A stretch of 37,658 nucleotides of DNA from a virus. Position 1 is the first letter of the stretch. Every line of letters starts with the position of its first letter. Below, piece by piece: positions 1 through 37,658 of this stretch. A program made the position numbers and the translations under genes. The notes beneath the pieces are model-generated. The model saw only the letters and a list, made by a program, of their open reading frames with translations. It was not told the DNA's origin and did not search any database. The DNA lies in IMG/VR virus record IMGVR_UViG_3300035698_020835, positions 1-37,658 of that record. One strand, 5' to 3'.

Positions 1-127
1 GCAACAAAACATCACAAATACCAACTCCCCGGCGGCCAGAATTACCGAGAGATCTTGCTCACCATGCCCCCTAAGAATGCGGATGAGCTTAGAAATACCT
101 TTCAATCAAGTCACTTCGATGAAGCAA
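1..127. repeat. Terminal direct repeat (assembly overlap), copy 1
   Basis: Bases 1-127 are identical to 37532-37658. A length of exactly 127 matches a common maximum assembler k-mer, so this is probably the overlap of a circular contig and not a biological terminal repeat. Joining the two copies keeps the long reading frame open: 34349-37531 is exactly 1,061 codons and continues in frame at base 1. The repeat lies inside that gene, which also argues against a true phage terminal repeat. Confidence 0.93.
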
Positions 128-3100
128 ATATCTTGGCCCATACCCGCGTCAATGACCGCAAAGACTCCGAAGGCAATAAGGTTCTCTTCATTGAGGAGAT
201 CCAGAGCGATTGGCATCAGAAGGGGCGCAAAGAAGGCTACCGGACGAAGGGAGCGGCGGGGATTGTTCCAGACGCTCCCTTTAAAAAAACTTGGCATGAG
301 CTTGCTTTGAAGCGCTTGATTCGAATGGCCGCTGAAAATGGCTATGACAAACTTGCTTGGACCACCGGCGAGCAACAATCAGACAGGTATGAGCTTTCTC
401 AAGAAGTGGATATGATTCAAGTTCGTCCCGCCAAGAGTGGCGCTGGCTTTGATGTGATGGCCTTCAAAGGGACTGACCAGAAGATCAATGAGACCGCAAC
501 GTCTGAAGATGCTCTTGCCCGGATGATTGGAAAAGACCCGGCACGGATCGCCATGGAAAAAGGCGCGGCAAAAGGTCCGATCCAACTCTATGACCTTGAT
601 CTCAAGGTGGGCGGCCAGGGAATGCAAGCTTTCTACGACCAGATGATTCCTCAATACCTTAAGAAATACCTCAAGAAGTGGGGCGGCTCCGTGGGCATGA
701 CTCAAATTGAGGACAAGGGCCAAGGCACTTTAGTTCATTCAATCGACATCACCGCTAAGATGCGCGTGAGCGTGCTGGATGAGGGCCAGAGCTTGTTTCG
801 TGAGACGCCTGAGGAGTACGGCAACCAAGGGGATAAGGACCGGATTAAGAAGCTCGAGGACCTCATTCGTAACACTAAAGAAACGCTTGAGGCCACAGAG
901 ATGATTGCCTTGAATGAAGCTCGCGCCGTCATCAAGTCGGGACCTGTGAAAGAAAAGATCCCATTTAAGGATCGCATCAACACACTTACCTCAAAGCTTC
1001 GGGTTGATTTCATCTCAGAGTTTTTCCCGGTCAAGCAACTTGAGAAGGACGTCTTTAAAGTCTACGGAAAAGAGGTTCCAAGGTTTGATCTTTCAAAGAA
1101 ATTTGAGCTTGTGGCCGGTGCTCGTGGCCGCGCGGAAGCAGACATCAGAGCTTTTGAAGCTGACATCATTAAACCCATTCGAAAGAACTATGATGATTTC
1201 AATGTATTCTTGTTTCTCAACCGCACGATCTCTCGCCTTAAAACGGATCCAGACCTCAAGCGTGTGGGATCCTGGACAGTAGAGAAGGCAGAAGCCGCGC
1301 TTGACGGACTTGAGAAGTCACTCGGGGCCCTTGAGTTTAGAAAGTTCTTGCATGTGGGTCAGGAGTTCCAACAGCACATGGACAATGCCCTTCAACTTCA
1401 AGTTGATTCGGGCCGCATGTCCGAGAAGCTCTATGAGACCATCAAAGAATCAAATGATTATTACGCGCCGTTTAAGGTCTTGAAATACTTTGAAGAAATG
1501 GAAGCGGCCAAGGGCTCAGGCGGTAGGAACATAGCCACCACGCAGCAACTCACCAAGAAGATTACGGGGATCCACTCTGAGGATTTTAATATTGTGGACA
1601 TTCTCATGACATCAGAGAGTCAGATTTACAAGTCCCGTATCCTTGCCGAGAAAAACCTTAAGATGCAAGAGATAGCCAACCTCTCAGAGCTTGACACCGA
1701 GAATAAATTTATCCGACCTTTGCGCTCGCACGAGGAAGCAGGGAAGGGCATGGACGAGGTAAAACTTTTCCAGGACGGGAAAATAGTTCGACTTGAGGTA
1801 GCCCAGGACGTGGCGGAAGCAGTCAAGGGCCTCAACCATACCCAAGTCGGGACGTTCATGAAAATCTTATCTTTAGTGGCCGCGCCTCTCCGTGCGGGTG
1901 TGACCGTCAACAACCTTGATTTCCAAGCAAGGAACCTTTTCTTTGCGGATCTTCCACGAGCTGGGCTTATCTCGAAGTATGGATTTAAGAAAGTAGGCGA
2001 TATTCTGCGCTTCCCGCTTGATTGGATCTATTCAGTGGGCAGCTCACTTCATGGGAATTTTGGCGGAGATAATGAATTGTATACTCAATTCCTAAAGAGC
2101 GGCGCAGCAAATTCCACCATTGCCAGAATGATGAGACCTGAAGCCTTCCGCCGGGAGCATCGCTTAGAAAAGTCTGTTGCAAAGCAAGTGCTTGGTGTCC
2201 CTGCAGATATTCTTGACAACATTGCAAAGTTCTCAAACGCCATTGAAGAGACCAGCAAGCTCCTTGGCGTCAAGCGCGGTCTACGTATGGAAGGGTTCGA
2301 TAAGCTTTCACCGGCAGAGCAAACGAAAAAGATGGAAGAGATCGCCCACGAAGTTAGAAACTATTCTGGGAGCCCTGACTTTGCACGCAAGGGAAGAATT
2401 GCGGGCGTTATGAATCTTGTTGTGATGTTCTTTAATGCCCGCCTTCAAGGTGTGGCTGCAGATATGAAACGCCTTGGTGGCCTTTCCGGTGGGAAAGAAG
2501 CGACCATGGCGTGGACGAGAATGTCGGTCGTTGTGGGACTTCCGGCTCTCGTCCTTAGTTTGGTAAATCATTCTGACGAGAATGAAGAGGATTACTACAA
2601 GATCCCCGAAGTGGAACGCGAGAGTTATTTCATGATCCCCCGCGATAAATATTTCACCAACAAAGAAGGTGAGCAAATCCGTGAATATTGGCGGATCCCA
2701 AAACGTGAGGTCGTGAAGCTATTTTCCAACATGATTGAGAAGGGCGTTGAGTTTGCCAAGGATAAGAACCCAGACGCGCTTGCTGAGTACGCAGCCTATT
2801 TCCTTCAAGATATTTTTCCTATCAACATACAAGGGAACAACCCGGAAGAAATCACCGAGAGCTTGATTGCCTCTCTGAACCCTCTCTTTAAAGCGCCTTA
2901 TGAGTACACGACGGGACGAAACGCCTATTTTCACAACAACATCATCCCGTTCAGAATGCGTAATATTTCCCCTGAGCTTCAATATCGCTCAAATACGCCT
3001 GAAGTTTATAAGGCTGCCGCCCGGAGTAGAATTGGACAGTTCTTTAACCTCTCGCCTTTGAAGGCAGAGGGCCTAGTCAGGAGTCTTACCGGCGGGCTTC

Positions 3101-3642
3101 TTACTCAATTTCAAATCAGGGAGCCCGACGCGGGTAGAAGTAAATTCACGCAGTATCCACTTACAAGAATCTTTCACCGGTCACGATATACTGAGAACAA
3201 AGACCTTGATAAATCTCTTGATGATGCAACCCGCAAGCAAGCAGATGAGCGCTTCCTTTTGCAAGAGATGGCAGAAAAAGAGGTCGAGGGTATGGAGACC
3301 ATGACGCGCGAAGAGAAGGGTCAGAGACTTGCCGCTATTGCGCGAAACAAGCCACTCTTTGAGCGCTTCAAGAAAACTGCTAAAGACAAAATGCTCAACC
3401 TTTCCTATGCAGAGCGTCGCATTAAATCTCTTGGAGTGAACAATGGTGAGAGAGCTGCATTCATCTATGATCTTCTTAGAAAAGAAGGCGAGAATCGCTA
3501 TGGATACCTGAAGGAATTGGTTCATAAAAAAGTGGTGAGTGAGACGGTCTTGAAGCAGATTCTTGCACGAGTGATGAATGACAATACGCTGGCCACTAAA
3601 GAAGAAAAGATCTCCAAGCTAAGGGAGGCGTTAGCTAAATAA
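1..3642 (+). CDS. Giant phage polyvalent protein, C-terminal part (continues from 34349)
   Basis: This is residues 1062-2274 of a 2,274-residue protein whose start is at 34349. The frame is open from base 1, so no start should be placed here. Residues of about 1075-1195 form a block I recognise from many phage and plasmid polyvalent proteins: NYREILL, then FIEEIQSDWHQKGRKEGY near residue 1124, then VPDAPFKKTWHELALKR and WTTGEQQSDRY. Its biochemical activity is not known to me. The remainder is mostly helical and charged, with hydrophobic stretches near 1861-1960 and 2400-2570 of the window, resembling the late LPD-type domains of polyvalent proteins (exact Pfam number not determinable by eye). 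Such proteins are thought to be packaged and injected with the DNA. The position directly after internal virion genes fits that. The end is TAA at 3640-3642, overlapping the next ATG by one base. Confidence 0.85.
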   Translation, partial: ATKHHKYQLPGGQNYREILLTMPPKNADELRNTFQSSHFDEANILAHTRVNDRKDSEGNKVLFIEEIQSDWHQKGRKEGYRTKGAAGIVPDAPFKKTWHELALKRLIRMAAENGYDKLAWTTGEQQSDRYELSQEVDMIQVRPAKSGAGFDVMAFKGTDQKINETATSEDALARMIGKDPARIAMEKGAAKGPIQLYDLDLKVGGQGMQAFYDQMIPQYLKKYLKKWGGSVGMTQIEDKGQGTLVHSIDITAKMRVSVLDEGQSLFRETPEEYGNQGDKDRIKKLEDLIRNTKETLEATEMIALNEARAVIKSGPVKEKIPFKDRINTLTSKLRVDFISEFFPVKQLEKDVFKVYGKEVPRFDLSKKFELVAGARGRAEADIRAFEADIIKPIRKNYDDFNVFLFLNRTISRLKTDPDLKRVGSWTVEKAEAALDGLEKSLGALEFRKFLHVGQEFQQHMDNALQLQVDSGRMSEKLYETIKESNDYYAPFKVLKYFEEMEAAKGSGGRNIATTQQLTKKITGIHSEDFNIVDILMTSESQIYKSRILAEKNLKMQEIANLSELDTENKFIRPLRSHEEAGKGMDEVKLFQDGKIVRLEVAQDVAEAVKGLNHTQVGTFMKILSLVAAPLRAGVTVNNLDFQARNLFFADLPRAGLISKYGFKKVGDILRFPLDWIYSVGSSLHGNFGGDNELYTQFLKSGAANSTIARMMRPEAFRREHRLEKSVAKQVLGVPADILDNIAKFSNAIEETSKLLGVKRGLRMEGFDKLSPAEQTKKMEEIAHEVRNYSGSPDFARKGRIAGVMNLVVMFFNARLQGVAADMKRLGGLSGGKEATMAWTRMSVVVGLPALVLSLVNHSDENEEDYYKIPEVERESYFMIPRDKYFTNKEGEQIREYWRIPKREVVKLFSNMIEKGVEFAKDKNPDALAEYAAYFLQDIFPINIQGNNPEEITESLIASLNPLFKAPYEYTTGRNAYFHNNIIPFRMRNISPELQYRSNTPEVYKAAARSRIGQFFNLSPLKAEGLVRSLTGGLLTQFQIREPDAGRSKFTQYPLTRIFHRSRYTENKDLDKSLDDATRKQADERFLLQEMAEKEVEGMETMTREEKGQRLAAIARNKPLFERFKKTAKDKMLNLSYAERRIKSLGVNNGERAAFIYDLLRKEGENRYGYLKELVHKKVVSETVLKQILARVMNDNTLATKEEKISKLREALAK

Positions 3643-10988: not shown

Positions 10989-12275
10989 ATGAACCTGAGA
11001 ATTTCCGGGATTAAAATTGACCTCGTTCTCGTCCTACTTGGACTCTCCCCGCTTTTCTACTACATGGATCAATTAAACCCAAACATTCGATTGCAACAAA
11101 TTAGTTTCTTTTTGTACATGACCGTGTTGTTTGTTGCGGTAATGCACAACAATAAACTTATTGGCGCGTTCCTCCTTCTCTCCGCTGCCCATCTTTTCAT
11201 GTTTGGACCATCAGAATTTTATGTAGACAAGATGATCTTCCTTACGTGCGGGGCATTGATCTTTCACGCTGTAGCTTCTGGTTATGATGGGAAATATTGG
11301 CGGCATATTCTCCTTGCTGTGCTTGTGGTGAACCTCGTGCTCTCTTTGCTTCAGATGCAAGGAAAAGACATTTTTTTCTTCCAAAACCAAGAGGCGTCAG
11401 GTTTCTTCACATTGCCTAGTTATATGGGCATTTATGCCGCTGTGACCGCGCCGGTGCTTTTCACGCTCACGCCTTGGGCTCTTGTGCTCTCCGTAGGGGC
11501 GGTGCTACTTTCAAAGTCAATCTTTTCCTGTGTTGCGCTTGCGCTTGGGATGGGCTACTTTTTCACGCAGAGATACAAATTTCGCCCAACCCTTTATTTA
11601 TGCCTATTTATCGGGGCAATTGCTGGACTAATATTTTTGGTTGCGGTGAAGGACTCGTCCACTGGCCAATGGAGTCGGCGGGGCATGGTTTGGAAGATGG
11701 TTGCATCAAAGGCATTCAGGAGCCCATTTATTGGACACGGTGTAGGGAGCTATCAAAAAACAATGTTCATCGAGTTCCGAGGCCACGAGAACACTTATTT
11801 CCAAGTGAATGTCAAACCTGAGAATGAGGAACCTCTCAAAGCAAAGATCCTTGAAATTGCTCATGCCAACGGCACCGACACATCAAGGATTGAATCAATT
11901 CACTTTAAGCAACCCGGCGGTGTGTTCCATAATTTAAAGTTCATCATGGATGACTTGCGCGGAAAAAAAGAGAATGGTTTGCATGGATACATCTGGGATC
12001 ATCCGCATAATGAATACTTGAAAGTGTTTTACGAACATGGACTTTTGGGGTTACTGCTTGTTTTATTATTGGTGCGCCGGTGGGTTTTTAAGAATACAAG
12101 CGGCACAAGAATACTTGTTTTCTCATACAAACAACTTACCGAGCTAAGTGCGCTTAGAGCGAGTGCGCTTGCCATTGCTATCGTGAGCGTTGCTCATTTC
12201 CCTTTTCACATCCCGCGATTAGCTGCTATCATTATTTTTTTACTTGCAAAACTTGACTCTAAATTTAAACCATGA
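10989..12275 (+). CDS. O-antigen ligase/polymerase-like membrane protein
   Basis: A 428-residue polytopic membrane protein with about 10 hydrophobic segments. A large soluble loop at about residues 225-350 begins with the family landmark RGMVWKMVASKAF...GHGVGSYQ and ends with WDHPHNEYLKVFYEHGLLGL. This is the conserved Arg and the H-N-x-Y-L ... E-x-G pattern of Wzy/WaaL-type proteins. Cellular members polymerise or ligate O-antigen at the periplasmic face. In a phage it could alter the host surface and exclude other phages. AAGGA precedes the ATG at a good distance. It opens the rightward cluster and its stop overlaps an ATG (ATGA). Which of the two reactions it performs is not decidable. Confidence 0.78.
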   Translation: MNLRISGIKIDLVLVLLGLSPLFYYMDQLNPNIRLQQISFFLYMTVLFVAVMHNNKLIGAFLLLSAAHLFMFGPSEFYVDKMIFLTCGALIFHAVASGYDGKYWRHILLAVLVVNLVLSLLQMQGKDIFFFQNQEASGFFTLPSYMGIYAAVTAPVLFTLTPWALVLSVGAVLLSKSIFSCVALALGMGYFFTQRYKFRPTLYLCLFIGAIAGLIFLVAVKDSSTGQWSRRGMVWKMVASKAFRSPFIGHGVGSYQKTMFIEFRGHENTYFQVNVKPENEEPLKAKILEIAHANGTDTSRIESIHFKQPGGVFHNLKFIMDDLRGKKENGLHGYIWDHPHNEYLKVFYEHGLLGLLLVLLLVRRWVFKNTSGTRILVFSYKQLTELSALRASALAIAIVSVAHFPFHIPRLAAIIIFLLAKLDSKFKP

Positions 12276-13164: not shown

Positions 13165-13727
13165 GCGATCTACAAAAAGACCTAGAGCAAGTATTTCTTG
13201 AAGAACTCAACAACAACTCAAGCCTTGAATATTCAGGGCATGCAGAACGGCTCGCGCAAAAAGCAATTGCATTCTTTCAACCCAGCGTGGACGCGTTTAT
13301 TGAACAAGCAGAACAAAACAAGTTCCTAACCTCCGCGACAGTGATCGCGCAGTGGCACCGGGCAATCACGCTGATTCGAGATATGGAAGAGGCGCTCTAC
13401 TTGCTTCCCATTTACACCGTTCCAAATGGTGAGCTCGCGGTAAGGTGCAAGGAGAACATAGGGAAGTTCTTTGATTACGGCCCGAACAAAAGCCTTCATG
13501 CAGTTATCTTGAAGGTCATCACTTCCAAAGCACTCCTGAGGGATGTTTATTATTTCCTTGAGTCGTTGATCAAACAATCCCAGAAAGCGGTAAAGCACGC
13601 AGAAGAACCCACCAAATCATATATCGAGAATCGCATTGAGATTATGGGAGACCTGAAGCAAGGAGTCTCAGAGATTATGGCGGCGGCGGGGGTTCTTGGT
13701 GACAATCTCGAAGAGCCTGAGAGTTAA
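13161..13727 (+). CDS. Hypothetical helical protein between the terminase genes
   Basis: A 188-residue, mainly helical acidic protein starting MSDLQKDLEQVFLEEL. It overlaps the small-terminase gene by four bases and the large-terminase frame by about 30 bases, so all three are probably translated as a unit. No motif identifies it. A packaging or DNA-processing accessory role is suggested by position only. Confidence 0.65.
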   Translation: MSDLQKDLEQVFLEELNNNSSLEYSGHAERLAQKAIAFFQPSVDAFIEQAEQNKFLTSATVIAQWHRAITLIRDMEEALYLLPIYTVPNGELAVRCKENIGKFFDYGPNKSLHAVILKVITSKALLRDVYYFLESLIKQSQKAVKHAEEPTKSYIENRIEIMGDLKQGVSEIMAAAGVLGDNLEEPES

Positions 13728-15987
13728 TGCCAATGACACAGTATGGGAAGGCCAGCCCCGCCAGTTAAAGTTTCTTTATTCGCAGTGCGATGAAGCGTTT
13801 TATGGGGGAGCCGCGGGCGGTGGTAAGTCTGACGCGATCCTCGCATTTAATATCTGCAGAAGAAAAAAATACCCAGGATCCAAAGGTCTCATCCTTAGAC
13901 GCACCATCACAGAACTTCAAAAAGAAGGTTCACTCATCCCAAGGAGTCATGAACTTCTTGGGCTCCCTGAATGGAAGTGGAACGAGCAAAAGAAGAAGTG
14001 GACCGACAGAAACAATGGCGTCATTGAGTTTGGCTACTGCAAGAATGAGAAAGATGTTTACAAGTATCAATCCTCCGCCTTTGATGACATCTCATTTGAT
14101 GAGCTTACCCATTTCACAGAGTTTCAATACACCTACCTAAAGACAAGAGCTCGCTCTATTCGTGGTGTGCCAGTGGCAATCCGCTCTGCCTCAAACCCTG
14201 GCAATGTAGGGCACCTCTGGGTTAAGGATAGATTCATTGATCCATTTCCACTCGGCGAACAAATCATCTCTGAGCCCATCATAAATCCACTTACCAAAGA
14301 AACAGAATATCGTACACGAACCTATATTCCCGCGAAGGTATGGGATAACAGCAAGCTTCTTGAAAAAGATCCAAATTACCTTCTTGCGCTTCAATCCATG
14401 CCGGAAGCCATAAGAACCGCTTTGCTTGATGGTGATTGGAACACGTTTGCAGGGCAATATTTTGGAGAGTTCAAGACAAAGACTCATGTCATAAGACCCT
14501 TCAAGATTCCTGTTGAATGGCCAAGATACATCACGATGGATTGGGGCATGGCGAAACCTGCTTGTTTATTATGGATTGCTGTGGCCCCCACGGGTAGAGC
14601 CTATGTTTACCGGGAAATCTATTGCACCAACAAAATCTCATCTGTTGTGGCAAAAGAAATGAAACGCTTCGTGGATGCAGATGAAAACATGGGCGCTAAA
14701 TATTATGGGTGGCTTGCAGACCCATCAATATTTTCAAAGAAAGGTGAGGCGTCTGGATCAATTGCAAGCACGTTTAAGAAAGTTCTTGGCCGTCAGTTTA
14801 GACCTGCAAAGAATCAACGCGTGCAAGGCTGGAATCGTTTACGGGAGTGGTTCGCGCTTGCGCCTGACGGTCTTCCGTGGATACAATTCTTTTCAACCTG
14901 TGCGAACTCAATCAGAACCATCCCTGGGTTAATTCATGATGATCTTCATCCAGAGGATGTTGACACGGATGGAGAGGATCATTGCTTTACAGGAGAGACA
15001 AGGATTGGCTGTCTGTTTCGGAAAATAAAGATCAAGGATATGGTGGGAAGAAAATATTATGTTGCGACAACAAAAGGTTATAGAAAATGCCGGAGTGTTC
15101 GCCGTACTCGCGTGAGCAAGGTATGGGAGGTTACATTTGAGGATGGATCAAGCCTTAAAGCAACACCTGATCATAGGTTTCTAACACAGCGCGGTTGGAA
15201 GCATTTAAAAGAAATTAAGATAGAATCCGACGTTCTGATACAATCAGATACTTCATGTATAAAGTTATCTCTAAAACTATCCAAGAATTTAATGGAATCC
15301 GTTATTACTTGTGCGGACAATATTTTCAAAAAAAAGGTAGTCGGCTTCATCTTCAAGTTTGGAAAGACGCCCACGGAAAAATCAAGAAGGGGTTTTGCGT
15401 CCATCACAAGAATGAGAACCGCTCCGACAACAGGATTGAAAATCTACAGCTCATGTCAAACTTTGAGCATGCATCCCACCACAGCAAAGCACCCGCTAAC
15501 ATCAAACGAATCATGGAGATATTATTTACCAAGGCTCAACCAGCAGCCGCGAAGTGGCACGGATCTGAAGCAGGAAGGAAATGGCATGCCCTCCATTCAA
15601 AAAAAGTGTGGAAGAACATGGCCTTGGTTGAAAAGGTTTGTGTGGTGTGCGGCGCGAGCTACAAAACGCCAATTTCACGCCGTTCGCTTTCAAAATACTG
15701 CCATGCGAATTGTAAAGCTACAGCCCTCAGGAGAAGAAGAGGTATACAACCTCACCGTCCCGCACGTAAAAAACTACACCGTTGAGAACGGAGTCATTGT
15801 CCATAACTGTGGGGATGCAATGAGATACTTCGCTGTGACGAAACCTAAGATCATTAAAAACAAACCAACCCCCGACATTTCAAGGCTTGCATTACGAGAT
15901 CAAGCGCGTATTGACCGTGAAGAAAAGAAGAAAGAAACCGCACAACAATCAAAAGGTGTCAAAAGCTTTCTTGATACTCTAAGCTAG
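13696..15987 (+). CDS. terL: Large terminase subunit containing an intein
   Basis: The precursor is 763 residues. Removing the 275-residue intein leaves 488, a normal terminase size. ATPase: Walker A GGAAGGGKS (37-45), RR at 68-69, and Walker B ISFDE with D135 and E136. Nuclease (RNase H-like): first Asp in YITMDWGMAKP, second in YGWLADPS, third in CGDAMRYF (D707), immediately after the intein. It drives packaging and cuts the DNA. The exteins join as GEDH | CGDAMRYF, matching the usual ED-H-x-x-D-A-x-R-Y signature. The start is TTG 13696 or GTG 13699, inside the end of the previous gene; no ATG occurs before the Walker A. A separate HNH gene lies in another frame within the intein. Confidence 0.92.
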   Translation: MVTISKSLRVNANDTVWEGQPRQLKFLYSQCDEAFYGGAAGGGKSDAILAFNICRRKKYPGSKGLILRRTITELQKEGSLIPRSHELLGLPEWKWNEQKKKWTDRNNGVIEFGYCKNEKDVYKYQSSAFDDISFDELTHFTEFQYTYLKTRARSIRGVPVAIRSASNPGNVGHLWVKDRFIDPFPLGEQIISEPIINPLTKETEYRTRTYIPAKVWDNSKLLEKDPNYLLALQSMPEAIRTALLDGDWNTFAGQYFGEFKTKTHVIRPFKIPVEWPRYITMDWGMAKPACLLWIAVAPTGRAYVYREIYCTNKISSVVAKEMKRFVDADENMGAKYYGWLADPSIFSKKGEASGSIASTFKKVLGRQFRPAKNQRVQGWNRLREWFALAPDGLPWIQFFSTCANSIRTIPGLIHDDLHPEDVDTDGEDHCFTGETRIGCLFRKIKIKDMVGRKYYVATTKGYRKCRSVRRTRVSKVWEVTFEDGSSLKATPDHRFLTQRGWKHLKEIKIESDVLIQSDTSCIKLSLKLSKNLMESVITCADNIFKKKVVGFIFKFGKTPTEKSRRGFASITRMRTAPTTGLKIYSSCQTLSMHPTTAKHPLTSNESWRYYLPRLNQQPRSGTDLKQEGNGMPSIQKKCGRTWPWLKRFVWCAARATKRQFHAVRFQNTAMRIVKLQPSGEEEVYNLTVPHVKNYTVENGVIVHNCGDAMRYFAVTKPKIIKNKPTPDISRLALRDQARIDREEKKKETAQQSKGVKSFLDTLS
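14983..15807 (+). mobile_element. Intein in terL, residues 430-704, with foreign-frame insert
   Basis: Splicing elements are all visible. Block A begins at Cys430 (CFTGETRIG). Block B contains KATPDHRFLTQRGW, with the T-x-x-H motif. Block F is VYNLTVPHVKNYTV. Block G is VIVHN, with penultimate His703 and terminal Asn704, and the +1 residue is Cys705. Residues of about 521-669 have a Ser/Lys/Arg-rich composition with no endonuclease motifs; this is the stretch where another frame encodes an HNH endonuclease. The element is therefore a mini-intein whose linker is the shadow translation of an inserted gene. It should be splicing-competent, but activity is not shown. Confidence 0.88.
15255..15785 (+). 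CDS. HNH homing endonuclease, nested out of frame in the intein
   Basis: A 176-residue protein in the -1 frame relative to terL. The N-terminal part (NGIRYYLCGQYFQKKGSRLH) and the catalytic region VHHKNENRSDNRIENLQL...EHASHH give a complete HNH motif: H50-H51, N59/N63 and H72. A helical K-WHGSEAGRKWH segment typical of phage HNH enzymes follows. A C-terminal zinc finger (C129-x2-C132 ... C149-x3-C153) and an Arg-rich tail complete it. The gene ends at TGA 15783-15785, inside intein block F, so its last 27 codons are dual coding with a conserved intein region. ATG 15255 has no obvious ribosome site; translation could be independent or arise by -1 frameshifting. It would cut intein-less terL alleles to spread the element. 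Confidence 0.85.
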   Translation: MYKVISKTIQEFNGIRYYLCGQYFQKKGSRLHLQVWKDAHGKIKKGFCVHHKNENRSDNRIENLQLMSNFEHASHHSKAPANIKRIMEILFTKAQPAAAKWHGSEAGRKWHALHSKKVWKNMALVEKVCVVCGASYKTPISRRSLSKYCHANCKATALRRRRGIQPHRPARKKLHR

Positions 15988-24710: not shown

Positions 24711-24737
24711 ATAAATTCTTTAATCGGGAGGACCACC

Positions 24738-25616
24738 ATGCCAGAAACAAAATTCACCAGCGAAAATGTAGCCGACCTTCAGAAATCGTGGGAGTTCCTT
24801 ACTGAAGACCTAAAGCGTCTCCGAAAGGAACACAAGAAACTCTCTGAGATAGTCTCCAAAGGGCAGGCGTCTCTTGATGTTAAGGCTCAAAAGCGACAAG
24901 AGGAGATTGTTGAGCACGAGATCCGTCTTGAGAAAAAGCGCGGAATCTTTGAAAAGACCAAGAAGGAAAACCAAGCGCTTGTGACTGAGCTTAGTCTCCG
25001 CGAGCAAGCAGTATACAACGCCCTCGAGAAACTAGGCCATGAACGCGCAGAGCTGAGCGAGCTTGAGCGCAAAGCCATAAGATCGCAAACTCTTGCATCC
25101 AAGCGCTTAAATGAGGTTAAGACAGAGCGCCTCGAGTGCATTGTTGCGAAAAAAGAGGTCGGGCTCAAAGAGGCGGCGTTTAAGAAAAAAGAAAATGCAC
25201 ACATGGCGTTTGTAAGTAGGTTTAACGACTCCGAGAAGAAAAGAGTTGCTTATCTCGATGAGCAAGAAGCCAAACTTGTTAAGCTTGAAAAGAAATTGAA
25301 CGGCACGTCAAACACGCTTGACGATCGAAAAACAGATCTTGATAATTTCAAAGATAACCTCACAGGAATTGCCAGCGGTCTTACTACAGAGAGCAAAGAG
25401 ATTCAAACAAAGCTAGAAGAGGTTGCAGAACAGTTTGCAAAGCTCAATAAACGTCAGTCTGAGGTAGATCAACAAGAGGAGGTACTCGAGGGCACACGCG
25501 CCAACTTGAAGGCGCTAAAAGAGCAACTAGTCGTCAAAGAGGGCAAAATGAGGGGCGTGATTAAGCGCGAATCTTTGCTCGAAAAACACCCGGACCTTGC
25601 CGATGTTGAAATATAA
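24738..25616 (+). CDS. Long coiled-coil protein
   Basis: A 292-residue protein, almost all heptad-repeat coiled coil (KRLRKEHKKLSEIVSKGQAS, LEKKRGIFEKTKKENQALV, and so on), with no enzymatic motif. GGAGG precedes the ATG. Length is about 35-40 nm if fully extended. Position between the connector and the lysis region suggests a virion rod, a tail-associated or an ejection-accessory protein, but rods of this type are also used for length control. No family recognised. Confidence 0.7.
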   Translation: MPETKFTSENVADLQKSWEFLTEDLKRLRKEHKKLSEIVSKGQASLDVKAQKRQEEIVEHEIRLEKKRGIFEKTKKENQALVTELSLREQAVYNALEKLGHERAELSELERKAIRSQTLASKRLNEVKTERLECIVAKKEVGLKEAAFKKKENAHMAFVSRFNDSEKKRVAYLDEQEAKLVKLEKKLNGTSNTLDDRKTDLDNFKDNLTGIASGLTTESKEIQTKLEEVAEQFAKLNKRQSEVDQQEEVLEGTRANLKALKEQLVVKEGKMRGVIKRESLLEKHPDLADVEI

Positions 25617-26118
25617 AAACCTAATTATCCTTTTTGTAGTAATGCTTCTAGCCTCCAACTCGGAGGCTTTTTCTCGTGAAACACGCTTCTTGCTTGTGCA
25701 GACAGAAGATGAAGTCACCGAGATTATGAACGCTCACACCATCATCGTCACAGACGGAACACTCACCGAACCCGACCCTGGTGTCGCTCAGATTGATATT
25801 AGCGCTGGCGGCTCGGCATGTGACAATACAGTTTATGGCGCTGGCTGGAACGGAGACACCACAGATTCCGCTTGTAAAGATGCTCTTTATGACAAGATTG
25901 AGACGATTGCTTCAGGGGGTGAGGTAAACACCGCGAGCAATCTCGGTGGAGGTCTTGCTAATTATGATTCAAAAAGTGTCGCTGACTTAAGGTTTAACAC
26001 CTTCGCCGCCGCTGATTTTGATCTTGTTGCAAATCTAATCACTATTGACGCTGCTTATAACGCGCCCACAGCGTCAGCAGGCGGATCAACATTTAAACCG
26101 CAAGTGATAATTGCATAA
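25603..26118 (+). CDS. Signal-peptide-bearing fibre-like protein
   Basis: A 171-residue protein from ATG 25603 (an upstream TTG at 25597 is possible), overlapping the coiled-coil gene by 14 bases. The start MLKYKNLIILFVVMLLASNSEA is a strong signal peptide. The mature part includes NTASNLGGGLANYDSKSVAD and LVANLITIDAAYNAP, as in phage tail-fibre repeats. A perfect terminator hairpin is embedded in the signal-peptide codons (25650-25672). No clear ribosome site is present. Function unknown; it may be secreted or membrane-tethered. Confidence 0.55.
   Translation: MLKYKNLIILFVVMLLASNSEAFSRETRFLLVQTEDEVTEIMNAHTIIVTDGTLTEPDPGVAQIDISAGGSACDNTVYGAGWNGDTTDSACKDALYDKIETIASGGEVNTASNLGGGLANYDSKSVADLRFNTFAAADFDLVANLITIDAAYNAPTASAGGSTFKPQVIIA
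25650..25672 (+). terminator. Intrinsic terminator inside a signal-peptide coding region
   Basis: AGCCTCC (25650-25656), 5-base loop, GGAGGCT (25662-25668), then TTTTTCT: a perfect 7-bp stem with a T-tract. It lies 34 bases after the coiled-coil gene stop and inside the next gene, where its bases encode the Ala-Ser-Asn-Ser-Glu-Ala cleavage region of a signal peptide. Confidence 0.65.
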
Positions 26119-26162
26119 GAAAAGGAATCTAATATGAAAACAAAACTCATCTAAAGGAGAAC

Positions 26163-26483
26163 ATGGACAACTTCTTAGACATCGCAGGCAACGCAACGCT
26201 TTATAGCCTGATCGGCTTCACCTCGATCATGCTCATCATCATGGCCGTTCGTAAGGCGTGGTATTGGTTCACGGTGTTCAGCGGGATAGCGGGCTGTGTG
26301 GTTGCGGGTGAGATCACTAGTTACATCTTCCGCGACAAATCAATTAGTACTCAATACGGCGAATGGATTGCGGCTGACCCCTTCTGGGCTTGGACCGCGC
26401 TCATTTGCTTTCTAATCGCAATGATCTCGCTCGTCATACATCTCGCGGCCTACGGGTTGCGGAAGAAAAACAGGGGTAAGTAA
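26163..26483 (+). CDS. Three-helix membrane protein of the lysis region
   Basis: A 106-residue protein with three hydrophobic segments (about residues 12-30, 34-52 and 72-96), a charged C-terminus (RKKNRGK) and AAAGGAG just before the ATG. Size and topology fit a class I holin, but no holin family is recognised by sequence. It starts a run of very closely spaced small membrane-protein genes. Confidence 0.6.
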   Translation: MDNFLDIAGNATLYSLIGFTSIMLIIMAVRKAWYWFTVFSGIAGCVVAGEITSYIFRDKSISTQYGEWIAADPFWAWTALICFLIAMISLVIHLAAYGLRKKNRGK

Positions 26484-26735
26484 ATGGCACAAGAGATGAA
26501 GCAATTTGGTCAGAGCTGGAAAGTATTTATTTGGGGTGTGGGAATAGTGTTTATGGCGGGAAGTGCGTATGCCGGATACCAGCACCACGGCAACAGACTC
26601 GACCAGCTAGAGGAAACCACCCGGAAAGACCATGACACGCTCGTGCGCGTTGAACAATCCATGGAGTATGTCAAATCAAATGTTGACCAGTTACGTCAAG
26701 GTCAAAGGATGATTCTACAGAAACTAGGTAGTTGA
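26484..26735 (+). CDS. Membrane-anchored coiled-coil protein
   Basis: An 83-residue protein: one transmembrane helix at about 13-33 (VFIWGVGIVFMAGSAYAG), then a coiled coil (LDQLEETTRKDHDTLVRVEQ). The start is immediately after the previous stop. This resembles hemolysin XhlA-like or spanin-like phage proteins that act at the inner membrane. It could be an i-spanin, but the more usual order would place it nearer the lipoprotein. Confidence 0.6.
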   Translation: MAQEMKQFGQSWKVFIWGVGIVFMAGSAYAGYQHHGNRLDQLEETTRKDHDTLVRVEQSMEYVKSNVDQLRQGQRMILQKLGS

Positions 26736-26821
26736 TGACTCGTTTTGAAAGAATTAAAATTGCAATGAGTACAATATGGTTCGGGATAAAGAGCTTATTT
26801 CGCGCCTTAACCGGGAGGTAA
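26735..26821 (+). CDS. 28-residue amphipathic peptide gene
   Basis: The ATG overlaps the preceding TGA (TGATG) and the TAA ends one base before the next gene's ATG, so the gap between neighbours is filled exactly. The peptide (MTRFERIKIAMSTIWFGIKS... ending LTGR) would form a cationic amphipathic helix. The GGGAGG ribosome site of the next gene is inside its last codons. It is either a lysis-cassette micropeptide or a translational-coupling spacer. Confidence 0.4.
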   Translation: MTRFERIKIAMSTIWFGIKSLFRALTGR

Positions 26822-26822
26822 C

Positions 26823-27011
26823 ATGGATAAGATTACAGACCTAATCAATTTAGTGAAAGATCATTGGGTGGAGATTGGTGTTGTAGTGTTTGCCGTCCAT
26901 ACCGCAGCAAAAGCGATAACTGATATTACAGAGACAAAAAAAGATGATGCCGTAATTGCAAAAATTGGGCAATTCTTAGGCTATATCTTTGTTGGAAAAA
27001 GAGTTAAATAG
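26823..27011 (+). CDS. Holin-like single-pass membrane protein
   Basis: A 62-residue protein: an N-terminal amphipathic stretch, HWVEIGVVVFAVHTAAKAI as a transmembrane helix, a charged connector with KKDDAVIAKIG, and FLGYIFVGKRVK as a second hydrophobic helix. The W-x-EIG ... H-x-x-AK-x-I ... KDDA pattern is shared with small phage holin-like proteins. GGGAGG precedes the ATG. Stop and next start overlap (TAGTG). Confidence 0.6.
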   Translation: MDKITDLINLVKDHWVEIGVVVFAVHTAAKAITDITETKKDDAVIAKIGQFLGYIFVGKRVK

Positions 27012-27217
27012 TGCCTACTCTGACTTACTTTATTGCGGGGGCGATATTCTTTGTAGCGTATATCGTCTTCCGCATTTTTAAATCACGCGATGTTAAAGAA
27101 GCTGAACGAAGGAAGGCCATCGATGAGGTTGCAAAGAAACTTGATCAAGATGCTGAGTCCATGTCTCTTATTGATATTCGTAATCACTTACGGGAACTTC
27201 ACCGTTTAAACCGTTGA
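27011..27217 (+). CDS. Inner-membrane spanin-like protein
   Basis: A 68-residue protein starting with GTG 27011 (shared with the previous TAG). An N-terminal signal-anchor (YFIAGAIFFVAYIVFRIF) is followed by a charged coiled coil (KEAERRKAIDEVAKKLDQDA). That is the topology of an i-spanin (Rz type). A predicted lipoprotein is encoded just downstream, as expected for the o-spanin partner. Spanin assignment is by topology only. Confidence 0.55.
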   Translation: MPTLTYFIAGAIFFVAYIVFRIFKSRDVKEAERRKAIDEVAKKLDQDAESMSLIDIRNHLRELHRLNR

Positions 27218-27242
27218 TTAGTTTAATCTCTTAACTTAAAAT

Positions 27243-27422
27243 ATGCTTCTAAATAAGGGGCATGTATGGAGTCAAACAGGTAAGATTAAAGTTAAATCAT
27301 GTTCAAATTGCGGTGGAGAATCAAACCTTGAAAAACATCACGAAAACTATAAAAAACCACTTGACGTTGTTATTCTTTGCCGTGCTTGTCATTGGAATTT
27401 GCACAGGCTGCGCAAAAAATAA
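27243..27422 (+). CDS. HNH-like zinc protein, out of frame with the lipoprotein gene
   Basis: A 59-residue protein. CSNCGGESNLEKHHENYKKP is followed by LDVVILCRACHWNLH, giving C20-x2-C23, H32-H33, C46-x2-C49, H50 and H54. This closely follows the small phage HNH/zinc family ('CxxCG ... HHxDYxxPLxVxxLCxxCHxxxH'). It has no evident ribosome site, and its N-terminus is shorter than usual, so it may be truncated. It is dual coding with the lipoprotein gene over 27328-27422, in the -1 frame. Both frames look protein-like. Confidence 0.55.
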   Translation: MLLNKGHVWSQTGKIKVKSCSNCGGESNLEKHHENYKKPLDVVILCRACHWNLHRLRKK

Positions 27423-27558
27423 AGAAGTGATGGACGAATATACCGTGAGCGTCGCCGAGCATCAAATTGAGATCGATGGCGAGAAATTCTCATGCTTCGA
27501 CAAGAAAGCTCTCAAGGCAATGTTTGCTTGTGAAGTTGAATACGTGAGGGCACATTGA
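27328..27558 (+). CDS. Predicted lipoprotein, o-spanin-like
   Basis: A 76-residue product from TTG 27328, with GGAG ending 9 bases upstream (ATG 27262 is an alternative, giving 98 residues). A basic n-region (KNITKTIKNH), a hydrophobic core (LTLLFFAVLVIGI) and CTGC form a type II signal; the lipobox has Cys where Leu is usual at -3. The mature part is short and has two more Cys (SCFDKK, FACEVEY). It follows the i-spanin-like gene. Its signal-sequence codons are read in another frame by the HNH-like gene. Confidence 0.55.
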   Translation: MKNITKTIKNHLTLLFFAVLVIGICTGCAKNKEVMDEYTVSVAEHQIEIDGEKFSCFDKKALKAMFACEVEYVRAH

Positions 27559-28025
27559 TACAACAAATCCTAGCAGCGCTGCAACCCACATTCATTTTTG
27601 CTTTGTGTTATTCACTCGCCGGGAGGACGGAAGTCACGCTCGGGGTCAGGAGATACTTAGGATGGGGATTATTCGTAGCATTTGCGAGTATTTACAATTT
27701 CTCTTCGTACTGGCAGCTCTTGTGCTATGGGCCGCTCTTGATAGCTTTGCATCTTTCCTATGGCGTAGAAAATGACAGTGACGTTCTTAAGAAAATCCTT
27801 AAGAGATTACTGGTGGGCGTCGTGGCGGGCCTTACTGGTCTTTCTCTTGGCATCGTGCTTGATGTATGGTATCTCGGGGTCGCTCAGTTTATCCTTGCAG
27901 TGCTTGGCAGTGTGGTGCTTGGTGTATTCAATCCTTTTAAGGCTTGGATAGAAGAAGCAAGCATTGCAACCTTGTATGTTATATTAATCCCAATGATGAA
28001 AATTTTGGTGATGCATGCCTCTTGA
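27555..28025 (+). CDS. Multi-pass membrane protein, 156 residues
   Basis: The TTG start overlaps the previous TGA (TTGA). Four to five hydrophobic segments are visible (for example PTFIFALCYSLAG, LLVGVVAGLTGLSLGIVLDV, FILAVLGSVVLGVF). No family recognised. It might be a second holin, an antiholin or a membrane exclusion protein. The stop overlaps the tail gene by 11 bases. Confidence 0.6.
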   Translation: MIQQILAALQPTFIFALCYSLAGRTEVTLGVRRYLGWGLFVAFASIYNFSSYWQLLCYGPLLIALHLSYGVENDSDVLKKILKRLLVGVVAGLTGLSLGIVLDVWYLGVAQFILAVLGSVVLGVFNPFKAWIEEASIATLYVILIPMMKILVMHAS

Positions 28026-30564
28026 AGATGTTGCACCCGTAGAAATTAATGAATATTTTGGGCTGAACACGAAACAATCTCGCGCTAAACTTGCGCTTGG
28101 TTTCTCTCATTACCTTAAAAACATAGATTTATCAATCCCCGGAGTGGCGAAAACACGTAATGGTTCTGCACAAATTAATTCATATACCGCGCCTTGCGGC
28201 CTTGATGATAATGCGCTTGAGTTGGATGGCGATAGCGACTATCTCACGGTGCCTGATCATGCTGATTTTGATCTTAGCGGCGGAATTTGGACGTTTGATG
28301 CTTGCCTTAATATGGATACGCTCACTTCGGCAAACACCCTCTTCTCACAAATCACAGACGATAACAACTACGTGCAAGCCAAAGTCAACACGGACGGATC
28401 CATTGAAATCCTCGTCGTTGCAGCGTCCAGCACAACCGTAAGCATTAAGACCGCGGCGGCGGTTGTTGTTACCGGGACCTCCTATCACATTGAGCTTGTG
28501 GAAAATGGAAACACCTGGTACATCTTCGTGGATGGCGCTCTCTTGAAAGAAGGCACTGACACTAGCCGCGCCGCAAATTACACGGGTACATTTCAGATAG
28601 GTCGTATTGGGACAGGAACCCCCGCAGATTACTATGATGGCCACATGGATGAGGTGAGGCTCATGAAAGGAACTGCTGTGAACACGGTCGCATTCACAGC
28701 CCCTACCGTTGAGTATGCTTCAGATGCAAATACCTCGCTCTTGTTTCATTTTGGCGGCGATGATCAATCCACGACAATCACAGATTCGGGAAACACGGTT
28801 CACACGATTACAGCCAATGGCACAGCCAAGCTCCATGTTGGAGACCTTACTTTTACCCCTAAGACAATCTTTGATTATTTCATTCCGTCTACAGGTGTCC
28901 ACAACATCATGATCAATGGTGGGACGAAAGTGGTTAAGATGGATCATCAAGGAAGGTGGTCAACGCTTGGGGCAGGGCTCACAACAGCTCTATTTGTAAA
29001 TTATGTGAGCTATGATGATATTTGCTACATGGGCAACGGCACGGATGAGAATAAGGCCACAGACGACGGCACCAACTTTAGAAAAATGGGAATCACACCG
29101 CCCACAACCGCACCCACGGTAGCCACCGGCGCGGCGGGAGTTTTGGCAGGGGATTACCTTTATGCGTTTTCTTATTACAACTCCGCCACCCTTCACGAAT
29201 CAAACAGGACCGGGATCTCCGCGACCGTCAGCCCTTCAACTGAAAAGGTAGATCTTAGTGTAATGGCTGCCTCCGCTGATACTCAAGTCACACATAAACG
29301 AATCTATAGAACCACGGCGGGCGGCGCTATTCTCTTCCGATTAGCTGAGATCACAAACGCCACCACCACCTATACAGACAATATCGCGGATGCGTCTCTA
29401 GGAACTCTTGAGGGCCCCGCAGACAATGACGTCCCGAATACGTTTAAGCAAATGGAAGAATGGGACGGAAGAATCTGGGGATTCCAGAAAAATTCCACCA
29501 CGCTTGAGTTTTCAAATAGTGAGTATCTAACGCCAGCGGGCGCGGGGATTCCTCAAGAAAGTTACTCTGCGGATAATAGGATCAATTTCAATGCCAAGAT
29601 CTATTCAGTCCAACGCAGCCCGAATTTCAATGAGCTCTGGGTCCATACCTCAAGGGGCATTCGAGCGGTGCGCCCTACCTACGTTCCAGATGATCCCTAC
29701 ATAACCATCGTGAGATCAACATCGTGGTTTGGGATTGCTCAAAACTCAGGCTCGAACATTTTTAACGATCAATGGTTTCTTGCTGAGAATGCGAAGCTCA
29801 TGTCTATTGATTCCGCCGGTAACGTGAATTACGAATCAAATCTTATTGAGCCTGATATCTCCTCTGGCAATCTTTCCAAATACCCAGACGTCCAGGCTGT
29901 GCACCACAGAAAAGGCACGAAGAATCAATTTGTTATTGCCATTACGGAAAGCGGTAAGAGTAACCCTAATGTGATCTACCGGGCAAATTATCTTAATAGA
30001 ACGCCCGCAGATGAGAATGGCGTGACCTATCCCTCATGGGAATATCATGATTATGGATTCAATGTGACAGCGCTTGGCGTGGTTCGCAACACAAGCGAGG
30101 AAGAACAACTTTATGTGGGTTCTGATGATGGATCAATCAGGTTGCTTGATACTGGCACTAATGATGATTTAGTTGCAATTGATTGGGAGTTCTCAATAGG
30201 GTGGATGCGATCAACCATTACCCCGGAGAAAACTCTCTTCCCTCGCTGGGTGCTTGCTTTCTTTAATCCGCTCGGTGATTGGAGTTTTACGCTAAGAACC
30301 GATTTCGAATTTGGATCCCGAGGCGGGCAGACTTACTCAGTCAATGTCGCGCCTTTCGGCGGTAGGTTTGACCTTGATTTTATCTTTGATCAAACGGTGC
30401 TCGGGGGCGTCAACCCCCTCAAAGAAGTACCCCACGATTTAGCGGGGGATTACAAATATATTCAACTCACCTATTTTGGAAACGTCATTGATGAAACCAT
30501 GGAACTTCACAATATTGTGCTGCTTCCCGTAAGGATAGAGGGGTTCAGAATTGGTGGCGGATAA
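28015..30564 (+). CDS. Podovirus tail protein with inserted LamG/concanavalin-like domain
   Basis: An 849-residue protein. Residues 1-60 (EINEYFGLNTKQSRAKL, LKNIDLSIPGVAKTRNGSA) and about 290-849 (DYFIPSTGVHNIMINGGTKV, EEWDGRIWGFQ, YVGSDDGSIRLLD) fit the beta-propeller tail-tube/stabilisation proteins of short-tailed phages. Between them, about 62-285 is a LamG-type jelly-roll: ALELDGDSDYLTVPDHADFD, then YYDGHMDEVRLMKGT, then LLFHFGGDDQSTTITDSGN. Such lectin-like domains commonly bind glycans. The insertion near the N-terminus gives the tail a probable surface-recognition module. It starts inside the end of the preceding gene. Confidence 0.75.
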   Translation: MPLEDVAPVEINEYFGLNTKQSRAKLALGFSHYLKNIDLSIPGVAKTRNGSAQINSYTAPCGLDDNALELDGDSDYLTVPDHADFDLSGGIWTFDACLNMDTLTSANTLFSQITDDNNYVQAKVNTDGSIEILVVAASSTTVSIKTAAAVVVTGTSYHIELVENGNTWYIFVDGALLKEGTDTSRAANYTGTFQIGRIGTGTPADYYDGHMDEVRLMKGTAVNTVAFTAPTVEYASDANTSLLFHFGGDDQSTTITDSGNTVHTITANGTAKLHVGDLTFTPKTIFDYFIPSTGVHNIMINGGTKVVKMDHQGRWSTLGAGLTTALFVNYVSYDDICYMGNGTDENKATDDGTNFRKMGITPPTTAPTVATGAAGVLAGDYLYAFSYYNSATLHESNRTGISATVSPSTEKVDLSVMAASADTQVTHKRIYRTTAGGAILFRLAEITNATTTYTDNIADASLGTLEGPADNDVPNTFKQMEEWDGRIWGFQKNSTTLEFSNSEYLTPAGAGIPQESYSADNRINFNAKIYSVQRSPNFNELWVHTSRGIRAVRPTYVPDDPYITIVRSTSWFGIAQNSGSNIFNDQWFLAENAKLMSIDSAGNVNYESNLIEPDISSGNLSKYPDVQAVHHRKGTKNQFVIAITESGKSNPNVIYRANYLNRTPADENGVTYPSWEYHDYGFNVTALGVVRNTSEEEQLYVGSDDGSIRLLDTGTNDDLVAIDWEFSIGWMRSTITPEKTLFPRWVLAFFNPLGDWSFTLRTDFEFGSRGGQTYSVNVAPFGGRFDLDFIFDQTVLGGVNPLKEVPHDLAGDYKYIQLTYFGNVIDETMELHNIVLLPVRIEGFRIGGG

Positions 30565-37300: not shown

Positions 37301-37658
37301 CTTGAACGGGCAATTGAAGAGAAGATGCAAAACGCCTCCACAGCGTCTCAAATCATCGGTATCCTTAACTCTCACGGCGTCAAGAAGGATGAGCGGGACT
37401 GGACCGGCTTTGATGAGTTCATTGGCTCTAAAGAGAAATTCACCAAGCAAGAGGTGCTTGACTTTATTCGCGCGAATCAACTTGAAATCACTGAGGTTAA
37501 AAAAAGCAGAGGCGTCGAGTCAAGTCTTGGCGCAACAAAACATCACAAATACCAACTCCCCGGCGGCCAGAATTACCGAGAGATCTTGCTCACCATGCCC
37601 CCTAAGAATGCGGATGAGCTTAGAAATACCTTTCAATCAAGTCACTTCGATGAAGCAA
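34349..37658 (+). CDS. Giant phage polyvalent protein, N-terminal part (continues at base 1)
   Basis: Residues 1-1061 (to 37531) of a 2,274-residue protein. Residues 12-63 carry four DxIPL repeats in a disordered tail. About 125-440 is rich in Ala/Gly hydrophobic segments (MTLALTVGSGGSYVPLLAAA, AAVIGGVMGGLMNAPTAAF), possibly a membrane-inserting region. Residues of about 680-800 form a RadC/JAB domain: HNHPSGRSQPSKED with H773, H775 and D786, an intact JAMM metal site. That fold includes metalloproteases/isopeptidases; the RadC branch lacks a proven activity. The start is ATG 34349, directly after the previous TAG. A packaged, co-injected multi-effector is the likely role. Confidence 0.85.
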   Translation, partial: MDPKNKKFTDPDIIPLRSKPSAGSPNADIIPLKAAGSTDQDVIPLRSRGEGPKDQDPDIIPLKTSGPSISYSDSWDGEGIPKDVSPERFAASETRNKNTISNKLIDPLTLGPMGLGTPAKDIQVRKLNRVLRSGLAGAYEFTSNVARVPGFLAAGMAYSQPSLLPFEVEIPNALINNPVATFFDDAAQSVEVMSERYGVQPGQMKQFIEQKAASGEQYTEKDLEQFQRDQRVDFFDLVTKNPKEAAEYLTHNIIQNVPYQIMTLALTVGSGGSYVPLLAAATAYTGAAELGDINEREDIETNEKYEVAILTGLAEAAPELLSFGLFKYARKMFASIGVKAGREVLKKSVGAVLMKVIKGVGSQVLAEGAEEFITSLTQTMIKMHYKIEDTKTTTQMMREAYEAAVIGGVMGGLMNAPTAAFSALSDIEQDIDSGKIAAQDSPLERQELVAMKSEIENKMKGIKNEDGTFAVMPETVNSEAIKLLEKIDQMLETEKYSEGLPGEVFETTVVDLTTEAAMDEQKNGFQPEEQAGLETELQDIVQNQALVMKEIAEVSNGGGKGSNLIDTSQGFKVKAKTQIFRMKDGSIPKSMTDFMELAEDMLAQGKGEPNLVEDFKSVSSLLKHGRVLSQADADAILQSEETLALTEEGQQTYGDVQETIARYEQSAQETKPKSRWLQFIAALRKQAQATGRIDLRGQKITSSRDVATLLSIFRDPQLEKFHSLYLDANDNILAHTIVSSGNMTGAAFEAKELLFGIKNRAERTGAARVVLMHNHPSGRSQPSKEDADLTLKVAENLDGMPVSHVIINGDKYSSLTPFIDTDGEMKNVMGSGKYNPEQSYTLPVGETITSPDQAISLFQDHNENNNTVSVVLLTSGGEVAGVEAISKATFDRGNLSKAIQNIQSQYGVPHYLVVGDADVYRKTNPKDYPQGIRDIIWLDPSGNHQSKRENTNYNWKRFEDEKIGEMRRVMEDEAPGYGEMFYSDLERAIEEKMQNASTASQIIGILNSHGVKKDERDWTGFDEFIGSKEKFTKQEVLDFIRANQLEITEVKKSRGVESSLGATKHHKYQLPGGQNYREILLTMPPKNADELRNTFQSSHFDEA

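Follow-up and report, generated by a model that had tools for sequence, protein, structure and literature searches.

A functional lipoprotein gene appears to start inside a small accessory HNH gene in the genome of a tailed phage, the HNH gene being intact but of uncertain expression; this is the reading that we favour, with a little better than even confidence. The overlap is short and probably real, and it represents a mildly unusual arrangement made of known kinds of parts. Should both frames be translated, the conserved HNH catalytic core has been overprinted with a signal peptide and a lipobox, which would show how easily an export signal can overprint a gene when hydrophobic codons meet a wobble base. 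If the HNH frame is a mere relic, the case becomes an ordinary one of a gene start placed on the remains of an accessory gene.

The window, i.e. the whole stretch of DNA analysed here, is a 37,658-base IMG/VR virus record carrying a 127-base direct terminal repeat (1–127 and 37532–37658), and because of this repeat the genome is probably complete and circularised. It encodes a terminase, the major head protein and an SU10-like adaptor, together with a conserved tail/connector protein (28015–30564), and the virus is a tailed phage with an apparently complete genome of about 37.5 kb. A large gene apparently runs across the genome ends, and a 1195-aa ORF at 55–3642, which contains an LPD38 domain (E 2.3e-19) and matches a phage endolysin family less strongly (E 2.4e-8), is probably part of a giant virion protein. 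Near the terminase, positions 10989–12275 encode a 428-aa protein with a Wzy_C/O-antigen ligase match above the cut-off (E 1.9e-11), and in a stretch from a related phage (L098), an open frame of 451 residues with the character of a membrane protein lies upstream of the terminase.

The earlier note had described two overlapping frames, and both their coordinates and their phase are correct: the HNH ORF occupies 27243–27422 (59 aa, ATG start, TAA stop), and the lipoprotein frame, at 27262–27558, lies in +1 relative to it, all on the plus strand. The latter is open from ATG 27262 to TGA 27558; within 27328–27422 it reads NHLTLLFFAVLVIGICTGC, and its order is a basic stretch, a hydrophobic core, ICTGC and then 48 further residues. 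The most likely start of the lipoprotein is TTG 27328, because a ribosome-binding-site-like GGAG (27315–27318, within the HNH gene) stands 9 nt upstream and a 27-residue signal peptide follows. Two other starts were considered and rejected: with ATG 27262, 22 residues would precede the signal peptide and AAGG is just 3 nt away, and GTG 27313 has no Shine-Dalgarno match. From TTG 27328, the lipoprotein gene covers 27328–27558 (76 aa, TGA stop), and the two genes therefore share a 95-nt terminal overlap (27328–27422), in which the 3′ half of the HNH ORF is read in +1 as the signal peptide and lipobox, with neither gene lying within the other. The description of the pair as nested thus gives way to that of an end-to-start overlap; the first 85 nt of the HNH ORF precede TTG 27328, and even with ATG 27262 as the start, the HNH ORF would not be wholly within the lipoprotein frame. 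The TGA of the lipoprotein overlaps the TTG start of the following gene (27555–28025), which encodes a multi-TM protein of 156 aa with no relative found in viral contigs. Out of frame within that gene, a hydrophobic 59-aa ORF with a lipobox-like start (27772–27951) is probably spurious.

That the upstream frame encodes an HNH-like zinc protein, as proposed earlier, is borne out by its family match, by the residues that it conserves and by a core with a predicted beta-beta-alpha fold. The ORF carries CSNCG, HH and CRACH (sites C20, C23, H32, H33, C46, C49, H50 and H54) and matches phrog_2340 (endonuclease; E 1.8e-11) over profile positions 119–163 of 171, as well as phrog_11793, a family of 65 positions (E 2.4e-9); in Pfam, nothing scored above the family cut-off. 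All zinc/HNH core residues of the phrog_2340 type are present, namely CxxC, HH, CxxCH and the last His, with Asn for the usual Asp at 35 and Ile for the usual Trp at 44. Relatives are very common, at least 539 being found among at least 599 candidate stretches in viral contigs. All eight positions that are invariant in an alignment of 75 sequences are kept in this phage; seven of them are the Cys/His of CxxC, HH and CxxCH, which the core search pattern demands and whose invariance hence comes from the selection of the sequences, Tyr36 being the only independent one. An AlphaFold model built on 54 sequences predicts a strand-strand-helix order (strands 29–32 and 43–46, helix 47–58), in which the block pLDDT is 82–89 from residue 21 onwards and confidence is low at the start. 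The best Foldseek match of this model in the PDB is the HNH nicking enzyme 4h9d at E 0.87, which is not independent proof, no PDB structure matching at E 0.001 or better; the A4 profile searched against PDB sequences gave at best E 0.015, to a ribosomal protein.

The HNH ORF is a genuine homologue that comprises the C-terminal domain only, and its expression is doubtful. The N-terminal region (phrog_2340 positions 1–118) is absent, and an in-frame TAA (27237–27239) stands just before the ATG. Cores were surveyed in 89 sources (the window, L008–L015 and L016–L095, some nearly identical), of which 86 yielded 87 cores, L009, L033 and L070 being left out for lack of a core match. The HNH ORF of this phage is the shortest among the ORFs of these 87 cores, the other short ones having 68 and 73 aa. 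In two viral contigs (L020 and L021, around 2001–2135), the same core stands at the C-terminal end of an open frame of 620 aa.

Expression signals upstream of the HNH ORF are scarce. No Shine-Dalgarno match was found at its start, 27243, which lies 25 nt past the preceding stop. In a survey of 33 starts, including those of both HNH ORFs and two alternative lipoprotein starts, a match of at least 4 nt occurs at 20, versus 20.8% of random positions, and no match at seven (27243, GTG 27313, the start of the other HNH ORF at 15255, and 12272, 13696, 22297 and 25597). The last four lie inside an upstream ORF or on its final base, which is not the case for the HNH start. The HNH codon score, −0.044 per codon, falls between the coding and non-coding sets. 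Leaderless expression from TTGATT-17-TAAAAT (27214–27242) was considered and rejected, because the −10-like hexamer extends right up to the ATG and a transcript would be expected to start downstream of that hexamer. Promoter-like sites in the region are at the level of shuffled sequence (six found versus 4.6 expected).

The prediction of a lipoprotein stands, given its signal peptide, its ribosome-binding site, its codon usage downstream of the overlap and its place as the only good candidate in the genome. The 76-aa product consists of a signal peptide (residues 1–27), the lipid-attachment Cys28 and a mature part of 49 aa; besides Cys28, it has Cys25 in the signal peptide and Cys56 and Cys68 in the mature part, and it contains no proline. 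In the lipobox, ICTGC, position −3 is occupied by Cys, which departs from the usual [LVI][ASTVI][GAS]C, and the +2 residue is Ala. Outside the overlap, the gene scores 0.153 per codon, which compares with a mean of 0.135 (sd 0.096) for 30-codon windows from the 15 ORFs of the window that served as training genes, and −0.165 (sd 0.109) for open off-frame windows; the overlapping part, at −0.044, falls between the two sets. At 60 aa or more, it is the sole lipoprotein-like ORF on the plus strand, with one weak candidate on the minus strand, and block-shuffled genomes contain 0.05 such ORFs each. A laxer pattern, down to 30 aa, gives further candidates that are short, run antisense to long ORFs or fall within other genes, none of which was judged convincing.

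The earlier note had also held that both proteins look like members of real families, and this applies to the HNH protein, which has its family match, and not to the lipoprotein, which is an orphan whose homologue searches were empty. No credible score was obtained against Pfam, PHROGs or NCBIfam, and no relative was found in viral contigs, genome contigs or PDB sequences; a search of phages returned five records, all with E of 3 or more, and seven related virus records gave no relative in a search that had no positive control there. A single-sequence model (mean pLDDT 77.9) predicts a long helix at the N-terminus, then three strands and a second helix, and has no match at E 0.001 or better in BFVD or the PDB.

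The composition of the overlap argues for selection on the signal peptide. When the HNH protein was kept fixed and 200,000 synonymous recodings were drawn with the codon use of the phage, the +1 frame was open in 23.6%, open and at least as hydrophobic in 0.153%, and open, as hydrophobic and endowed with a lipobox-like motif in 0.007%. The openness of the frame is thus ordinary and its content is not, and since such hydrophobicity arises in just 0.15% of recodings, the signal peptide is probably under selection. In the converse experiment, 100,000 recodings of the lipoprotein left the HNH frame open in 18.0% and contained CxxCH in 1.2%. The hydrophobicity of the +1 frame, 2.71 in this phage, is reached by none of the 86 other cores, the next-highest values being 2.19 (L008) and 2.14 (L043 and L044); L002, examined separately, has 0.75. 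The second codon position of the lipoprotein coincides with the wobble position of the HNH frame, and the overlap is workable because HNH codons ending in T spell Leu, Phe, Val or Ile in the lipoprotein frame. Among the 276 possible single changes over 92 bases of the overlap, 165 alter both proteins, 57 are silent in the lipoprotein only, 51 in the HNH protein only and 3 in both. All 11 conserved HNH sites within the overlap are intact, and since 22 of the 57 lipoprotein-silent changes would alter one of them, some conservatively, the lipoprotein sequence alone does not dictate the conserved HNH residues.

The tail protein and the terminase served as queries in protein scans for related phages. 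The tail protein is 48% identical in G002 (IMGVR_UViG_3300023222_000137) and 53% identical in G004 (IMGVR_UViG_3300023284_001240); a third record (G009) matches over 161 residues only, four of the seven records searched give no match, and no relative was found in genome contigs. The window ORFs compared from 24738 to 28022 have no convincing match in the G002 stretch L007 (tblastn, E 0.001 or better), while both flanking genes match, and the HNH/lipoprotein region is for this reason regarded as a variable module (24711–28014, plus strand), set between flanks that are shared with a related phage (24309–24710 and 28015–30564). At the corresponding place, G002 carries a 72-aa lipoprotein-like ORF that is unrelated to the present one, the direct comparison being empty; G004 has no lipoprotein-like ORF there, and elsewhere it has a short one. 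A query that does detect the window and L002 gave no phrog_2340 match in G002, and none was found in the seven related records, where control genomes were also silent. No relative with both genes was found among these related phages.

In the reading that we favour, the variable module upstream of the conserved tail/connector gene holds a free-standing HNH gene of the widespread phrog_2340 type, and the lipoprotein would very probably be translated from TTG 27328 by means of the ribosome-binding site within that gene. After export, the product would receive its lipid at Cys28 and be displayed in the envelope; its most likely task there would be either lysis, with the protein serving as the spanin subunit of the outer membrane, or envelope modification or exclusion. 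The HNH protein, judged by its family, may be a mobile accessory module that nicks or cleaves DNA in a metal-dependent manner; its frame, older and widespread, is the likely template, on which the export signal was presumably overprinted, unless the signal was captured when the HNH element landed. Somewhat unlikely, though to be taken seriously, is that only the lipoprotein is functional and that the HNH frame is an untranslated recent relic, the former C-terminus of an endonuclease, which supplies the DNA of the signal peptide. Its being the shortest of 87 ORFs, its match confined to the end of the phrog_2340 profile, its weak codon score and its absence from both relatives agree with such a decay, as does the missing ribosome-binding site, the four other, non-HNH gene starts that lack one all lying in upstream ORFs. 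A relic of this kind has nonetheless acquired neither stop nor frameshift, its conserved overlap sites are intact despite the 22 lipoprotein-silent changes able to alter them, and short HNH ORFs exist elsewhere, at 68 and 73 aa, as does the family phrog_11793, which spans just 65 positions. Far less credible is that the lipoprotein frame is no gene but a chance open frame running over and beyond the HNH gene. Openness alone would come about by chance in almost a quarter of HNH recodings, no homologue was found and the lipobox is atypical; against it stand the hydrophobic core, which only 0.15% of recodings reach, the typical coding score outside the overlap, the ribosome-binding site, the stop/start overlap with the next gene and the rarity of lipoprotein-like ORFs in block-shuffled genomes.

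Whichever HNH reading holds, the class of the lipoprotein has to be weighed separately. The label spanin-type, given to it earlier, is unproven: it has no proline and no family match, no confident i-spanin accompanies it and no endolysin was located among the ORFs searched. Small phage lipoproteins of the superinfection-exclusion or host-envelope-modifying type include T5 Llp and phi80 Cor, and it is quite possible, if short of an even chance, that the lipoprotein is real and belongs to this non-spanin type, which is compatible with either view of the HNH frame. Besides the missing proline and family match, no sequence or fold relation to known o-spanins was found, one relative has no lipoprotein-like ORF at that place, and the i-spanin candidates are unconvincing. 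The 83-aa protein at 26484–26735, with an N-terminal hydrophobic segment and a coiled-coil-like remainder, and the 68-aa product of the preceding gene (27011–27217), with an N-terminal TM segment and a charged remainder, both have the general shape of an i-spanin; the former matches phrog_1152 (Rz-like spanin) at a non-significant E of 0.2 and coiled-coil proteins at a similar place at E 0.034 in G004, with nothing in G002. Conversely, the lipoprotein sits among several small membrane-protein genes and, if the host is Gram-negative, it is, as the sole good lipoprotein, the only candidate found for a two-component o-spanin. A predicted signal peptide, a lipobox and cysteines available for an intermolecular disulfide are o-spanin features that it possesses, a proline-rich or proline-containing mature part being absent, and its two C-terminal cysteines and membrane-protein surroundings fit an o-spanin of the T4 kind. 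According to PMC6139136, cysteine occurs at least once in 507 of 528 two-component spanins, o-spanin lipoboxes can depart from the consensus, and the T4 o-spanin has two conserved cysteines and no proline-rich region.

The claim that this is the second HNH overlap in the genome is confirmed: a 176-aa ORF at 15255–15785 (HNH_3, E 3.1e-14, above the cut-off) is embedded out of frame in the ORF of the terminase (13696–15987). The latter contains an apparent intein of 275 residues (14983–15807; Pfam Intein_splicing, E 7.8e-14, above the cut-off), whose borders read C...VHN followed by C and whose frame stays open around the HNH ORF within it; in both related phages, the terminase is uninterrupted at the intein point (L097 and L098). 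An intein with its homing endonuclease encoded in another frame would be unusual, a literature search for such an arrangement having yielded only the ShiLan work and a genome announcement, and this case looks more interesting than the HNH/lipoprotein overlap. Both HNH ORFs recognised in the genome share DNA out of frame, and both lack a ribosome-binding site. Taken together, they suggest that small HNH genes of the phage may persist by sharing DNA. A stronger version is improbable in our estimate: in it, both proteins would be made and the HNH elements would owe their persistence to DNA shared out of frame with needed genes, so that loss of the HNH frame would damage the needed gene, be it a lysis or envelope lipoprotein or, through the intein, the terminase.

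Compared with known systems, the HNH protein shares with phrog_2340 (e.g. Sf6 gp26, annotated ‘endonuclease’) and the mini family phrog_11793 the C-terminal core CxxCG...HHxDYxKPLDVxWLCRxCHxxxH, in which its invariant sites are kept. It differs from phrog_2340 in having 59 aa only, without the N-terminal region, and from both families in that its last 31 codons double as a signal peptide, which is seen in none of the 86 other cores. The T4 o-spanin PseT.2, as described in PMC6139136, resembles the lipoprotein in lacking a proline-rich region and in having two Cys about a dozen residues apart near the C-terminus, and the partner candidate likewise has no cysteine; the conserved prolines of the PseT.2 family are, however, missing here, no sequence relation is detectable, and its beta-alpha-beta order contrasts with the predicted beta-beta-beta-alpha. 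As in lambda Rz/Rz1, the lipoprotein gene begins in the +1 frame within another phage gene, although here the host gene encodes an HNH protein in place of an inner-membrane spanin, a proline-rich region is missing from the lipoprotein, and a terminal overlap spanning the signal peptide replaces the lambda arrangement, in which the whole lipoprotein is covered. Judged from the titles and the openings of abstracts of the papers listed, no published report of an HNH/lipoprotein overlap was found, and searches of phages, viral contigs, genome contigs and related records gave no insertion-free homologue of the lipoprotein that would represent an empty site. The nearest published arrangement found, in PMC11855218, is an HNH endonuclease without a detectable ribosome-binding site, located out of frame inside a phage methylase gene. 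The HNH ORF described here likewise lacks a detectable ribosome-binding site and shares DNA with the frame of another gene; in the ShiLan-type case the whole HNH is an insertion in the host gene, whereas here almost half of the HNH ORF lies upstream and only the start of the lipoprotein gene is overlapped.
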